Source: Deltaproteobacteria bacterium | Lineage (GTDB): Bacteria > Bdellovibrionota > Bdellovibrionia > Bdellovibrionales > JAMPXM01 | DNA: 64,000 nucleotides | Direction: 5' to 3' | Assembly: GCA_017302795.1 (NCBI GenBank) | Contig: JAFLCB010000002.1 | Span: 124,001-188,000, forward strand | Shown: one piece after another, positions 58,889-64,000 of the stretch | Layout of the letters: each line of letters begins with the position of its first letter | Numbering within the stretch: the first letter of the stretch is position 1 | Notes under the pieces: generated by a model | Databases searched by the model: none | Seen by the model: only the letters and a program-made list of their open reading frames with translations | What the model was told of the DNA's origin: nothing | Position numbers and translations under genes: made by a program

Positions 58889-59281
58889 ATGGATGTCAAA
58901 AATGTAATTCGTAACATCCTTCCGTTTAGCAAGAATCCCGTTTCGGAAGCGAAGCGAAGGGAACTAGTACAAGGTGAGGCTAAAGCGTCACCTGATCGCG
59001 ATTCTAATCCGCAAGATCCCAACCATCATGAAGAAGCTCCAAAGCGCGGGCTATCGGAAGAAGAAATTCAAGCCGCGATTGCGCATCTCGAGGCTCTTCC
59101 GGGCGTCAAAGACAACGGACTTCGAATTCGACTTGAGAAAAAAGATGGAATTCCCGTCGTTTACGTCGAAGATCCCTCCGGCCGAGTTGTGCGACGGATT
59201 CCCGAATCAGAGCTAAGCCTAATGAAAGGCCGTTCTTCCGACGCCAAATCCACGGGTCAGCTCTTAAACAAAGCCATGTAA
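58889..59281 (+). CDS. flaG: FlaG-family protein
   Basis: A 130-residue FlaG protein; these affect filament length and usually sit beside flagellin genes. The C-terminal domain reads LRIRLEKKDGIPVVYVEDPS then GRVVRRIPESELSLMK, which is diagnostic. The N-terminal half is charged and disordered. Unlike many genomes, no fliD or fliS follows. Confidence 0.9.
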   Translation: MDVKNVIRNILPFSKNPVSEAKRRELVQGEAKASPDRDSNPQDPNHHEEAPKRGLSEEEIQAAIAHLEALPGVKDNGLRIRLEKKDGIPVVYVEDPSGRVVRRIPESELSLMKGRSSDAKSTGQLLNKAM

Positions 59282-59335: not shown

Positions 59336-60652
59336 ATGGGAAATCGGTTTTGGTCAGCTCTCAAACTAGTTGTTGCGGCAGCGCTATCGGTCACGTTGAC
59401 TGGTTTGTTGATTGGCGCGTTAGGCAACTACGCCTTTGGCAACGTCTCCGCTCCAATAGGTTCTTCAACTATGGTCGTAAAGGCCATGAGTCTTACAACT
59501 TATCAATCGTGGGGTTACACAGTTGATAGCACACCTCAAGGCGCACGCGTTCGCGGGTTAATTTTGCGCCTTAAAGCGCTCGGCTTCAATCATTTGACGT
59601 TCAATGTGCGAGCGAAAATGGTCACGGGGACAACTGACACCATTATCTCGTTTGTACCACCGCATCAGCAACCGACAGAAGAAAGATTGCTCGAGGAAAC
59701 CATCGAGTTCGCCCACTCTTACGGGATGACAACCGGGCTACGGCCCATTTTGTTGGTGGTGGGTCCGCGCGGTGAGTTTCCATATTCAAAGAGCGGGGTC
59801 ACTTGGTGGCACGGCAACATCGCACCAGGAAATCCTTCGCTTTGGTTTCAATCGCTTCGTTCCTTTCACGAACGCTATTTAAATTTGGCAAAACGCAAAG
59901 GGGTCGCGCAGTATACGATTGGAGCGGAACTACATTCGATGGTCACGGGACTCGGCGAGCGCCGTCCGAAAGTACCTCGCGGACATCCGCACCTATGGAC
60001 GGATTTTGCTCGATACGCTAAATCCGTTGTCGGTTCAACGACTCAGATTGCGTATGACATCAATTATACAGATCAGTACGTACTAGAGGATGGCGTAAAA
60101 AAACTCGGTGGAGAGTTTGAACAGTTTCGCTATGAGATGACCAAGCCTGTCCGGTCGGCCGAAGATACCGAGTTTCAAAATCAGCTGATCGGATTTTGGA
60201 AACAGCTAGATATCATAGGTGTTGATATGTATCGCGCGCTCGCAAGTCGGAGCTCCGGACACTCCAGCGATCTCACGAAACTATCTCAGAGTTTAAAGAC
60301 CAGAGCCGACTCGCACGCCACGCAAATCGATACTTCCCTTCTAGAAATCGAATCAGTAACTGGAGTTTTTAAAAAACTTGAATTGAAAGAAATTGGTTAT
60401 CGATCGACGGTAGCAAGTTTCGTTAACCCAGCTGCTTACGAATCTTCGGGAGGTACACTTTCTGTACTTCATCAAGCGGCTGCATGGCAGGCCCTGCTTG
60501 CCGCATTTTTAGTACCCCAGTGGCCCTGGTTTAGTGGCGTTCACGTCTGGGAAACGAATGTCGACCGCGACCATTTGAATCCAAAAGACCTAGGTTTCTC
60601 TCCACTTGGCAAGCCGCTCTCGGAAGACGTCTTTCGCGAACTTTTTAAATAG
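59336..60652 (+). CDS. exported TIM-barrel glycoside hydrolase, GH113-like
   Basis: A 438-residue protein with an N-terminal signal/anchor (LVVAAALSVTLTGLLIGALG). The body resembles the GH113-type (beta-mannanase-like) TIM barrel: LKALGFNHLTFNVRAKM on an early strand, presumed acid/base Glu in YTIGAELHSMV (about residue 200), and presumed nucleophile Glu in ELKEIGYRST (about 343). WPWFSGVHVWETNVDRDH near the end is also typical of this fold. The substrate is not known. It is convergent with wecB with 2 bases between stop codons, and close to an NfrB-like synthase, suggesting it trims or releases a glycan. Confidence 0.78.
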   Translation: MGNRFWSALKLVVAAALSVTLTGLLIGALGNYAFGNVSAPIGSSTMVVKAMSLTTYQSWGYTVDSTPQGARVRGLILRLKALGFNHLTFNVRAKMVTGTTDTIISFVPPHQQPTEERLLEETIEFAHSYGMTTGLRPILLVVGPRGEFPYSKSGVTWWHGNIAPGNPSLWFQSLRSFHERYLNLAKRKGVAQYTIGAELHSMVTGLGERRPKVPRGHPHLWTDFARYAKSVVGSTTQIAYDINYTDQYVLEDGVKKLGGEFEQFRYEMTKPVRSAEDTEFQNQLIGFWKQLDIIGVDMYRALASRSSGHSSDLTKLSQSLKTRADSHATQIDTSLLEIESVTGVFKKLELKEIGYRSTVASFVNPAAYESSGGTLSVLHQAAAWQALLAAFLVPQWPWFSGVHVWETNVDRDHLNPKDLGFSPLGKPLSEDVFRELFK

Positions 60653-60654
60653 CC

Positions 60655-61833
60655 TTAAACGTTACCGGCGAGTGAATCCAAAATTCGACCGGTAGCTTTG
60701 CCGTCGCCGAAAGGATTTTTCTTCGCGGCCATTTCTGCGAGCGCCTGAGGATTGTCGAGCAGGTGGCTTGCGTGTTTCAAGATCATGTTCGAATTCGTTC
60801 CGACGAGAAGCGCAGTTCCTGCGTCAACCGCCTCTTGGCGCTCGGTTTTGTCGCGCAGAACTAACACTGGCTTGCCGAGCGATGGAGCCTCCTCTTGGAC
60901 CCCCCCAGAGTCGGTTAGAAGAATCGTCGCCTGATTCATCATCCAAACGAAAGGGACGTAATCCAGGGGCTCAAGAAGTTCGATATTTGAATCGCTTCCC
61001 AAAACTTCGTCGACCGCCTGAAGAACAATCGGATTCCGGTGAACCGGAAGAAATATTTTTACGTCCGGTCGTTTGGACAAAGTTAGTAGCGAGCGAAGTG
61101 TTTCCCGAAGCGGTTCGCCAAAACTTTCTCGCCGATGTGTTGTTACAAGAACGATTTTTCTTTTCTCACGCAGGGCTTTTGAAACGGCAGGATATTTTTC
61201 GTGAAATCGAATTTCACTTGCGGGATCTTGAGTCAGACGTTCACGAACTGAGAAAAGCGCGTCGATACCAGTGTTGCCAGTCACGATGATTTTTTCAGCG
61301 CCGATTCCCTCGTTCAATAGATTTAACTCCGCTTGCTTGGTCGGAGCGAAGTTCCACGCAGCAGTCATTGCCACTGTTTTACGATTATACTCTTCCGGAA
61401 ATGGCGACATGAGGTCATGAGTTCGAAGTCCGGCCTCGATATGAGCGAGCGGGATCTTTTCGAAAAATGCTGCGATCGCAGCGGCGGCACAGGTAGCAGT
61501 GTCGCCCTGAATGCAGACGATATCGGGGCGGTGAACGTGCCAAGCCTCGCGAAGACGAATCATCGCGCTAGCGACAAACTCGGTAAGGCTTTGCCCCGGT
61601 TTCATCAACTGCAGGTCAACATCGGGTACAATTCCGAAAAAATTCAAAATCGGCTGCATCATTTCGCGATGTTGCCCAGTTGAAATCACGATCGGCTGAA
61701 ATCGCCCGTCGTACTTCGCTCGCAAAATCGGAACTGCCATTTTAACGGCCTCGGGGCGAGTCCCGAAGACAAAGGCGATTCGTAGGGGGGTTCCAGTTTG
61801 ATGAGTTCGGCCAGGAGCTTGAAGGTTCTTCAT
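60655..61833 (-). CDS. wecB: UDP-N-acetylglucosamine 2-epimerase (non-hydrolysing)
   Basis: Interconverts UDP-GlcNAc and UDP-ManNAc. The 392 residues contain VFGTRPEAVKMAVPILRA, STGQHREMMQPIL, IEAGLRTHDLMSPFPEEYNR, VTTHRRESFGEPL, PVHRNP and TDSGGVQEEAPSLGKPVLVL, all conserved in WecB/MnaA. It is divergent from the barrel protein and NfrB-like gene, with a 160-base gap that must contain both promoters. No other teichuronic or ECA-type synthesis genes are here. Confidence 0.95.
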   Translation of the reverse strand: MKNLQAPGRTHQTGTPLRIAFVFGTRPEAVKMAVPILRAKYDGRFQPIVISTGQHREMMQPILNFFGIVPDVDLQLMKPGQSLTEFVASAMIRLREAWHVHRPDIVCIQGDTATCAAAAIAAFFEKIPLAHIEAGLRTHDLMSPFPEEYNRKTVAMTAAWNFAPTKQAELNLLNEGIGAEKIIVTGNTGIDALFSVRERLTQDPASEIRFHEKYPAVSKALREKRKIVLVTTHRRESFGEPLRETLRSLLTLSKRPDVKIFLPVHRNPIVLQAVDEVLGSDSNIELLEPLDYVPFVWMMNQATILLTDSGGVQEEAPSLGKPVLVLRDKTERQEAVDAGTALLVGTNSNMILKHASHLLDNPQALAEMAAKKNPFGDGKATGRILDSLAGNV

Positions 61834-61993
61834 ATTTATCTAGCCGTTCGACAGTTTTAAACGCATTGGTTTGATTTGGGCTGCTGTTTCGAATGTCGAT
61901 GATCTTTCAGCGGTTCGGCTATCGGGATTGTGGCAAAGCTGCTATAAAAACGCACGGGCTTTCCTTCGCCTTGCGTTATTTTCGTATTAGGCT

Positions 61994-62968
61994 TTGAAAA
62001 TACCCGTGATTACAAGCTTAGGACTTAACGCTACGGATGGCGGAACGAATCGGCGAACCTTGAACGCAACATGCTTAAAACTAAATACTGATTCACAGCA
62101 GGCTGTCTCAAAGCATCACGGCAGATTTGCGGGTGACGCACGCGTTGGCGCTCTGATCGCGCTGACTTTCATGGTCATCTTAGTATCGGTTGCACCGAAT
62201 GCGCGCGCGGCCGATGAATTTGAATTTAGCGCGGAAATCTACACTCAAACTATGTATCGCCCAGAAGAGCGTCTTGATCGTCCACATGGAGTTTTTCACG
62301 AAACACGTTTGCGATCGTCCTTGGCTTTGAATGCTGATTCTAAGATAAAATTTGATTTCGGCTCTTACCTCTTGGCTGAGTGGAGCGAAGCCAGCCAGGC
62401 TTCTTCTAGCTTTACGAATACCTCACTATCGCCTTTCGTAGGATCCCACTGGAGAAATTCTTGGAACCTGCAATCCACTTTAGGTTCGTCAACGGCGTCT
62501 TTAACCCTTCAATTCGAGGGACGCTATCGAGAACCGGTCAGTGACTTCAGTCGGTCGACAGGCGTTAAAGGGTGGGATCCACGCACGGGTGCAGCGGTTG
62601 GCGTTTGGCATCAGTTCAATTCAAACTTCTTCTTAGATATCTACGCGGATCTTTTTTACGCTCCGAAATATTCGGCTGCGCCGATGTCGACGGCGATTGC
62701 GCGCGTCGGAAACCGACATACTTTTTCGGCAACGTCTGAGACCTCGTGGAAACCGTTTGGCGATCTTTACTTCGAGCTTTTCCAGCAGAATGCAATGAAC
62801 ATTGAACTGGGAACGAAACGGTCTGAAGGTCGCGCAGGTGTTGCCATTGGTGCTTCCCGCGAATCGGGTACCGTGCAGCTTCGGGTCTACAATGGTTGGC
62901 CGCTGGAATCCGATCGCGATTCGCGGTCTCGCCTAGAGGCGTTGCTAGTCGGAGGTTTCTCGCTATGA
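61994..62968 (+). CDS. exported beta-rich protein, probable outer-membrane barrel
   Basis: The product is up to 324 residues from TTG 61994; the start is uncertain (GTG 62006 and a later TTG are alternatives) because the signal peptide (VGALIALTFMVILVSVAPNA) begins only near residue 51. The mature part is made of alternating strands (FEFSAEIYTQTMYRP, IKFDFGSYLLAEWSEA, FFLDIYADLFYAP, GDLYFELFQQNAM, GTVQLRVYNGWPLESDRDSR) and ends in LLVGGFSL, which fits a barrel. Its stop overlaps the glycosyltransferase start (ATGA), so both are translated together. It may be the export or surface partner, in the position NfrA holds in enterobacteria, but it is far smaller than NfrA. Confidence 0.72.
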   Translation: MKIPVITSLGLNATDGGTNRRTLNATCLKLNTDSQQAVSKHHGRFAGDARVGALIALTFMVILVSVAPNARAADEFEFSAEIYTQTMYRPEERLDRPHGVFHETRLRSSLALNADSKIKFDFGSYLLAEWSEASQASSSFTNTSLSPFVGSHWRNSWNLQSTLGSSTASLTLQFEGRYREPVSDFSRSTGVKGWDPRTGAAVGVWHQFNSNFFLDIYADLFYAPKYSAAPMSTAIARVGNRHTFSATSETSWKPFGDLYFELFQQNAMNIELGTKRSEGRAGVAIGASRESGTVQLRVYNGWPLESDRDSRSRLEALLVGGFSL

Positions 62969-64000
62969 GTTTACCTCTATCCGGCGAGTTTTTTGCCGTC
63001 GAGTTTTTTCCAGTAGTCGGACTACTTTTGTTGGCCGCACTGTTAGCAGTGGACGATTTGTTTATTGATCTCATGTCGGCGATCAAACGACTGCGTCCGA
63101 AGGCAGTAGGCAAAGATGAACTGAGGTCATGGAGGCAGCAATCACAGAAAAACATAGCAGTCGTGGTTGCCAATTGGCATGAAGAAGATGTCATCGAGAG
63201 AATGCTCAGAGGTAATCTTTCCCGCCTCGAATATGCGCGCGTTTGGTTTTTTGTTGGTGTCTATCCGAATGACGAAGCGACTGTCGAAGCGGCACGGCGC
63301 GCGGCTAGAAATGATTCTCGAGTCGTCGTTGTTGAGAACCCGGTTCCGGGTCCGACCACAAAAGGTCAGATGTTAAATGTGATTTTCCGCCGCACTTTTG
63401 AAGTAGAATCTCGAATTGGCAGTCAGTTTGATATTTTTCTCATGCATGACTCGGAGGACGTCCTCCATCCGCAGTCGTTGTTAATGATTAACGCCGAAAT
63501 GACGAGCGGCTTCGATTTCGTCCAAATTCCTGTTTTCTCGTTCGCGCGCAAGGCATCTATGATTGTTGGTTCTACCTACATCGATGAATTTGCCGAAATA
63601 CACACGAAGGACCTTCTCGTACGAGACTACCTGAAAGCCGGAATACCGTCGGCCGGAGTTGGAACAGCGATCTCGCGCCGACTTGTTCAAAACCTTATGT
63701 CGACTCAGCACGGATCAGTGCTCAATGAAACTTCTTTGACGGAAGACTATATTCTCGGTCTTACGACTGCTCACTTAGGGTATCGATCGAAGTTTGTCTC
63801 ACGTTACATTCCGCATTATGATCGCAATGGTAAACTGGTACGCCGCGAATTCATCGCCACGCGAGAATATTTTCCGAGCGAGTGGGGCCGTGCAGTTCGT
63901 CAAAAAGGACGCTGGATTCACGGTATCGTTTTGCAGGGTCGTCGACTGTTGAAGTTCGAGGGATCACCGGCGCGACGCTATTTTCTGATGCGTGACCGAA
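62965..64000 (+). CDS. NfrB-like glycosyltransferase, truncated by the window end
   Basis: The frame opens at ATG 62965 and is still open at the last base (345 codons). A hydrophobic N-terminal segment (VVGLLLLAALLAVDDLFIDL) is followed by a GT2-type domain: VVVANWHEEDVIERMLRGNL, NPVPGPTTKGQMLN, FLMHDSEDVLHPQSL (the acidic metal motif), ETSLTEDYILGLTTAHLGYR (catalytic TED) and AVRQKGRWIHGIVLQGRR, where QxxRW of processive enzymes reads QKGRW. These match NfrB, the phage N4 adsorption protein B, which builds a ManNAc-containing glycan in E. coli. The C-terminal membrane segments and any c-di-GMP-binding MshEN domain lie outside. Confidence 0.85.
   Translation, partial: MSLPLSGEFFAVEFFPVVGLLLLAALLAVDDLFIDLMSAIKRLRPKAVGKDELRSWRQQSQKNIAVVVANWHEEDVIERMLRGNLSRLEYARVWFFVGVYPNDEATVEAARRAARNDSRVVVVENPVPGPTTKGQMLNVIFRRTFEVESRIGSQFDIFLMHDSEDVLHPQSLLMINAEMTSGFDFVQIPVFSFARKASMIVGSTYIDEFAEIHTKDLLVRDYLKAGIPSAGVGTAISRRLVQNLMSTQHGSVLNETSLTEDYILGLTTAHLGYRSKFVSRYIPHYDRNGKLVRREFIATREYFPSEWGRAVRQKGRWIHGIVLQGRRLLKFEGSPARRYFLMRDR

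Follow-up and report, generated by a model that had tools for sequence, protein, structure and literature searches.

The stretch of DNA analysed here, referred to as the window, comprises 64,000 nucleotides (positions 124001-188000 of contig C2) from the 4.23 Mb draft genome of a member of Bdellovibrionota. At its right-hand end lies a gene cluster centered on an NfrB-like glycosyltransferase of family GT2, which probably specifies a synthase-dependent exopolysaccharide system. The window cuts this locus in half: the stop codon of the synthase gene is located 419 bases beyond the window end, and the locus runs for about 6.05 kb more, until fliD. Genes beyond the window are given in coordinates of the neighbouring stretch L003 (window position = L003 position + 58999). 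The locus consists of the following genes (ORF, open reading frame; GlcNAc and ManNAc, N-acetylglucosamine and N-acetylmannosamine; aa, amino acids).

59336..60652, + strand: GHa, exported TIM-barrel hydrolase of the GH113 family, 438 aa (Pfam GH113, 44.8 bits)
60655..61833, - strand: wecB, non-hydrolysing UDP-GlcNAc 2-epimerase (UDP-ManNAc supply), 392 aa (TIGR00236 equivalog, 415 bits)
61994..62968, + strand: exported protein predicted as a small outer-membrane barrel, 324 aa when counted from TTG, mature form about 250 aa (AlphaFold, 12 strands)
62965..64000 in the window, L003:3966-5420 in full, + strand: NfrB-like processive GT2 synthase, complete at 484 aa (NCBIfam PRK14716/NfrB families, alignment)
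L003:5417-7285, + strand: DUF2334 deacetylase-like protein, 622 aa (Pfam)
L003:7289-9019, + strand: orf576, exported protein of 576 aa, no Pfam family
L003:9020-10318, + strand: GHb, second GH113 enzyme, 432 aa (Pfam GH113, 56.5 bits)
L003:10186-11052, + strand: lipoprotein, start uncertain

The wecB gene is divergent from the operon that begins with the barrel and synthase genes. The barrel stop codon and the synthase ATG (62965) overlap as ATGA, with GGAGG just before the start codon, and on these two signals the barrel and the synthase are judged to be translationally coupled. Downstream junctions are equally tight, with a 4-base overlap between the synthase and DUF2334 genes, a gap of 3 bases between DUF2334 and orf576, and a gap of 0 bases between orf576 and GHb. 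The initial annotation, drawn up from the window, had named a GH113-like hydrolase, wecB, a barrel-like ORF and a GT2 synthase, with the synthase coupled to the barrel-like exported ORF and wecB divergent from both, and all of this is confirmed. Its view of the locus as compact and minimal has to be given up, as the genes for DUF2334, orf576, GHb and the lipoprotein all follow just past the window. The closest named relative having the locus is Bdellovibrionota bacterium KLAP46.

The synthase shares 34% identity with residues 14-482 of E. coli NfrB, the glycosyltransferase region, over 475 positions (BLASTP), and NCBIfam places it in NfrB-related families only. The motifs HDSEDV, TEDY and QKGRW are present, and the core residues are invariant among relatives. 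In a 12-sequence alignment of the locus synthase, 10 relatives from the phylum and E. coli NfrB, the DxD-type, TED and QxxRW motifs are kept and the protein is collinear with the glycosyltransferase part of NfrB, so the assignment as an NfrB-like synthase is upheld. Homologues of the synthase are found in 54 of 369 Bdellovibrionota genomes, from which 53 loci were examined; no homologue was found in phage records.

The E. coli enzyme is controlled by cyclic di-GMP (c-di-GMP), and most NfrB homologues have an MshEN domain, while a minority without it has already been published (PMC8669469, PMC8669472 for the former; PMC8669469 for the latter). The initial annotation predicted that extending the sequence to the right would reveal transmembrane helices and a C-terminal MshEN domain. 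The hydrophobic helices are there, three in number, but a Pfam scan of the complete 484-aa protein returned no MshEN, and all synthases of the phylum in the alignment terminate where the NfrB linker to MshEN starts. Moreover, MshEN was found on 0 of the 53 related synthases: 52 are 442-557 aa long, too short for a glycosyltransferase plus MshEN, and the remaining one, of 855 aa, has a different extension. The expectation of an NfrB-type c-di-GMP switch on the synthase therefore finds no support. In the phylogenetic tree, one branch (85/97) separates the phylum synthases from Pseudomonadota NfrB; as the tree has no reliable root, it does not distinguish loss of MshEN from its later gain. Control by c-di-GMP in trans is possible, and an ordinary c-di-GMP-controlled Nfr system could employ a separate PilZ or other protein as its sensor. 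Such a sensor would be in keeping with the regulation of E. coli NfrB and with the 15 PilZ matches and two MshEN proteins encoded elsewhere in the genome (the latter on other contigs); none of these falls within the locus, however, and with MshEN found on none of the phylum synthases examined we regard this explanation as rather unlikely. In one related locus, a small PilZ-like protein, recognized by eye, is encoded directly upstream of the barrel-synthase pair (L022 8528-9007), a possible c-di-GMP input in trans.

The product of the gene preceding the synthase is predicted by AlphaFold to be a 12-stranded outer-membrane barrel (mean pLDDT, the model's confidence score, 83.2), in agreement with the earlier proposal that the 324-residue exported protein would model as a barrel and that a small barrel replaces the large NfrA. 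Its VIA-align matches are autotransporter beta-domains, OmpG, CymA, KdgM and NanC, that is, barrels of 12-14 strands, with Z 13.7 to 10.5, root-mean-square deviation (rmsd) 4.0-6.0 and 160-224 residues aligned; the best is the EspP beta-domain (Z 13.7, rmsd 4.0, 210 aligned). Sharing a fold does not by itself show function. The ORF, read from TTG, has its signal-peptide core at residues 49-67, which probably places the true start downstream of 61994. No TPR (tetratricopeptide repeat) and no NfrA_C match was obtained in a Pfam scan of the barrel, whereas E. coli and Comamonadaceae proteins do match NfrA_C. The exported proteins encoded upstream of the synthases are alignable over their full length at 18-45% identity and share the motif YSES-Y...TDTRLR (10 aligned). 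In 45 of the 53 loci a member of this family is encoded no more than 8 kb from the synthase, and in 37 its gene immediately precedes that of the synthase on the same strand and abuts it (a gap of at most 3 bases or an overlap of up to 109 bases, mostly 1-4, starts having been chosen mechanically). In 3 further loci an exported protein of 247-276 aa, missed by the barrel profile, occupies the barrel position.

The wecB product scores 415 bits against TIGR00236, well above the cut-off of 210, and the residues corresponding to K15, D95, E117, E131 and H213, which we take to be active-site positions of E. coli WecB, are all conserved in the alignment; the notion of a dedicated wecB with an intact active site beside the synthase is thus borne out. 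In 34 of the 53 loci the synthase has wecB at a distance of 8 kb or less, and wecB recurs next to it, on either strand, in many lineages. Together with the barrel counts, this substantiates the conserved synteny anticipated across Bdellovibrionota. The adjacency itself cannot be called new: wecB next to nfrB has been reported as frequent (Junkermeier and Hengge 2021, PMC8669469). In E. coli, genetics tie NfrB to WecB and make UDP-ManNAc the likely NfrB substrate (PMC8669469, PMC8669472). A GT2 sequence does not reveal its substrate, and the synthase could instead make a GlcNAc-, glucose- or mannose-based polymer, wecB belonging to a neighbouring unrelated pathway; wecB is indeed on the opposite strand and missing from some loci, and the genome has another WecB. 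This alternative is unlikely in view of the recurrence of wecB beside the synthase, its company with a different GT2 in Streptomyces (see below), the E. coli genetics, and the mannanase-family hydrolases that accompany the synthase.

These hydrolases, GHa and GHb, both exceed the Pfam GH113 cut-off of 27 and match GH113 beta-mannanases in the Protein Data Bank (4cd6/3civ for GHa), which bears out the claim of an exported glycan hydrolase of the locus's own, as a member of the GH113 family. The candidate catalytic glutamates of GHa, E198 and E352, are invariant in 23 homologues (both GH113 proteins and 21 others), and the corresponding glutamates of GHb align with glutamates of the solved beta-mannanases. 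In one locus (L024), a protein of GH26, another family with beta-mannanases, is encoded between the synthase and DUF2334. An exported GHL6-family protein is encoded beside wecB in two Bdellovibrio-type genomes, in loci devoid of DUF2334 and orf576 (L017 12096-13250, L018 6076-7230).

Relatives of the DUF2334 protein have conserved R-I/L-E-D, HGxxHQ and PHY motifs, which by their sequence resemble the metal-binding motifs of CE4-type deacetylases. In 8 loci (L084, L097, L101, L103, L105, L107, L108, L109), the DUF2334 protein, 840-1000 aa in length, has an added N-terminal GH113-like domain (hhalign 97.8%). Since both catalytic-glutamate equivalents are missing, this TIM barrel is considered degenerate rather than an active hydrolase; its fusion ties the functions of DUF2334 and GH113 together. 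Conversely, in several Bdellovibrio-type loci DUF2334 is reduced to its N-terminal domain (227-238 aa), the deacetylase-like domain being gone, and is still encoded beside the synthase (L020 8095-8778; L070 9647-10333; L072; L074; L076; L079; L081). The N-terminal domain alone seems to have a role of its own.

For orf576, an AlphaFold model built with 18 homologues (pLDDT 88.3) consists of an alpha-solenoid at about residues 32-360 followed by beta-rich domains. The beta part matches small beta-barrels (residues 474-576, Z 11.0 over 100 residues; 361-461, Z 8.0 over 88). The solenoid part retrieves generic repeat-protein, alpha-solenoid and designed-repeat matches only, and a TPR identity is accordingly not claimed. 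On the model, one may guess at a scaffold comparable to the TPR regions of PgaA or PelB.

Co-occurrence in the 369 genomes links these proteins to the synthase. DUF2334 is found in 48 genomes, 44 of which also have the synthase (Fisher p 1.8e-42); the corresponding numbers are 39 of 56 for GH113 (p 4.8e-27) and 18 of 19 for orf576 (p 1.0e-15), where the p values are too small because the test ignores phylogeny. The co-occurring genomes are distributed over several families. The remaining orf576 genome carries a broken synthase fragment. In one genome, orf576 stands beside truncated synthase and DUF2334 frames, a decaying copy of the locus (L113, G047:C1:3174000-3192000). Among the 32 loci whose flanks both measure 5.5 kb or more, the barrel is present in 29, DUF2334 in 28, wecB in 24, GH113 in 16 and orf576 in 10. 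It is conceivable that the exported GH113 and DUF2334 proteins act on a foreign polymer, such as prey or environmental mannan, and are merely co-located with the synthase, given that characterised GH113 enzymes degrade beta-mannans (PMC9032380) and that 17 genomes have GH113 without the synthase. Yet locus-type GH113 sequences resemble one another and recur beside the synthase, GH113-like domains are fused to DUF2334, and the module recurs in Streptomyces, which renders this explanation very unlikely.

Outside the phylum, a single Streptomyces plasmid carries, in a stretch of about 7 kb, wecB, a different GT2 gene, DUF2334 (28.5% over 564 positions), a strong GH113 match (197.5 bits) and a gene homologous to that of the lipoprotein. 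That the same processing set occurs with another synthase, in an organism lacking an outer membrane, is the strongest indication that wecB, DUF2334 and GH113 belong to the pathway of a single polymer. On Comamonadaceae plasmid CP099603, wecB and DUF2334 (30%) again accompany the synthase gene (38% identity), whose product likewise has no detectable MshEN; this cluster differs in exporting via a 1034-aa TPR protein with an NfrA_C barrel and in encoding a DUF4434 homologue of E. coli YbcH. In the other Pseudomonadota NfrB loci that were seen, the tails are MshEN-like and the outer-membrane partners large, and several of these loci also have wecB and BcsB-like genes.

Building on the observed gene content, synteny, domain composition, predicted folds and conserved catalytic residues, we consider it probable that the locus is a synthase-dependent exopolysaccharide system in which a WecB-derived ManNAc polymer is deacetylated, trimmed and exported via a TPR-less barrel. 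In the scheme that we infer for substrate, linkage, deacetylation, trimming and the route through the barrel, WecB would convert UDP-GlcNAc to UDP-ManNAc, and the membrane GT2 synthase would polymerise it and thread the chain into the periplasm. There, the DUF2334 protein would take off some acetyl groups and one or both GH113 enzymes would cut or trim the chain, while the alpha-solenoid of orf576 may be a scaffold in the role that the TPR region plays in NfrA or PgaA. The 12-stranded barrel, co-made with the synthase by translational coupling, would be the outer-membrane exit. With no c-di-GMP sensor on the synthase, control would be exerted by other means. The most likely product is a beta-linked polymer of manno configuration, probably a chain of beta-1,4-linked ManNAc that has lost part of its acetyl groups; the linkage itself is an extrapolation, given somewhat less than an even chance. 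This product is suggested by the action of characterised GH113 enzymes, beta-1,4-mannanases (PMC9032380), by the GH26-family protein of one lineage, by the genetics of E. coli NfrB and UDP-ManNAc, and by the exopolysaccharide Pss of Listeria, a deacetylated beta-1,4-ManNAc polymer with the deacetylase PssB (PMC6307706, PMC4125290).

The E. coli Nfr/NGR system (NfrA, NfrB, YbcH, WecB; PMC8669469; Sellner et al. 2021, PMC8669472) resembles this locus in four respects: the processive GT2 synthase is of the same family, an outer-membrane protein is tightly coupled to it, WecB supplies the precursor, and one more protein is exported, YbcH (DUF4434) there and GH113 here. In contrast, MshEN is absent here, the exit is a 12-stranded barrel without TPR or NfrA_C, its gene is located before the synthase rather than after it, and DUF2334, the solenoid protein, two GH113 enzymes and the lipoprotein are added. 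No DUF4434 match was found among the locus proteins in the Pfam scan. E. coli ybcH (L027:3092-3982) encodes a protein described as a possible periplasmic scaffold; the exported GH113, GH26 and GHL6 proteins hold a similar position in the loci studied, by which token YbcH may be hydrolase-derived.

The Pga/PNAG and Pel systems, with PgaB and PelA, likewise apply a deacetylase and a hydrolase to a synthase-made hexosamine polymer before export, and in some relatives here the deacetylase-like protein carries a fused hydrolase-like domain. They differ in that the synthase here is NfrB-related rather than PgaC-type, the deacetylase-like protein is DUF2334 rather than PgaB or another known deacetylase family, the hydrolases are GH113 rather than those of PgaB and PelA, the precursor is from WecB, and there is no TPR-porin. 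The likeness to Listeria Pss concerns the expected polymer, a partly deacetylated ManNAc chain; Pss belongs to a Gram-positive host and has PssE as c-di-GMP receptor.

Several points weigh against the proposed ManNAc exopolysaccharide system. A second WecB with a higher score is encoded elsewhere in the genome, which means that the locus wecB is not the sole source of UDP-ManNAc. We found no report in the literature of GH113 activity on ManNAc polymers, and enzymes of the large GH113 clade 5 have no detectable activity (PMC9032380). No solved structure related to DUF2334 was found, and its putative deacetylase role is proposed from motifs. The barrel has no detectable sequence similarity to NfrA (hhalign to E. 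coli NfrA 0.3%), which, together with the absence of Pfam NfrA_C, led us to discard the idea of a shortened NfrA. Finally, orf576, GH113 and DUF2334 are each missing from some loci, suggesting that not all parts are essential.

On a broader scale, it can be proposed, with a confidence that falls a little below the halfway mark, that WecB, a GT2 synthase, DUF2334, GH113 and the lipoprotein constitute a cross-phylum ManNAc-polymer module in which different lineages use different outer-membrane exits: a small TPR-less 12-stranded barrel plus a separate solenoid in Bdellovibrionota, a TPR porin in Burkholderiales and none in Streptomyces. DUF2334 would then be a poly-ManNAc deacetylase and the GH113 proteins poly-ManN(Ac) hydrolases, both new activities. 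This would provide the first functional hypothesis for DUF2334 and extend GH113 beyond mannans. What the product of E. coli NfrB, the N4 glycan receptor, is in chemical terms was unsolved in the literature consulted. Lineages in which DUF2334 and hydrolases of the mannanase family adjoin the synthase lead one to expect a beta-linked, manno-configured polymer, and they provide enzymes with which an NfrB-type product could be cut and identified. A further suggestion from the locus is that synthase-dependent polymers can exit via a small barrel without a fused TPR scaffold. While wecB-nfrB linkage and some MshEN-less NfrB proteins are already known, the processing module and small-barrel export appear new: neither was found in the literature searched, nor was any link of DUF2334 or GH113 to such an exopolysaccharide system found in open-access literature.

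The locus is inserted between flaG (window 58889-59281) and fliD (from L003:11165), with fliC-flaG directly upstream and fliD-fliS directly downstream, here and in KLAP46. This setting, together with the co-regulation of E. coli nfr with flagella (PMC8669469), raises the question of a flagellum-linked glycan locus, the product of which coats or modifies the filament or is co-expressed with it. We give this explanation very little credence. In relatives, fliC-flaG-fliD-fliS form an uninterrupted run (G006, G007), or else flaG and fliD are separated by unrelated genes or such genes immediately precede fliD (G004, G003), and no fliC, fliD or fliS homologue is found near the other synthase loci examined, the flagellar setting being shared with KLAP46 only. 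In addition, the locus encodes exported enzymes for polymer processing rather than flagellin glycosyltransferases of the cytoplasm. A flagellar sigma-28 promoter was searched for and rejected: the pattern matches 26 times in 78 kb against 14-25 times in shuffled sequences, no clear excess, and not once in the wecB-barrel gap.

The flaG-fliD junction was compared in further stretches (L131 641-9064; L132 2160-8783; L133; L134). It is contiguous in two genera of the family and holds the exopolysaccharide locus in two genomes of the genus; in two other genomes, a cluster of unrelated exported proteins occupies the junction or, where the contig is short, immediately precedes fliD. With the junction intact or filled by unrelated genes in such close relatives, it seems to be a site of variable insertion and not a sign of functional linkage.

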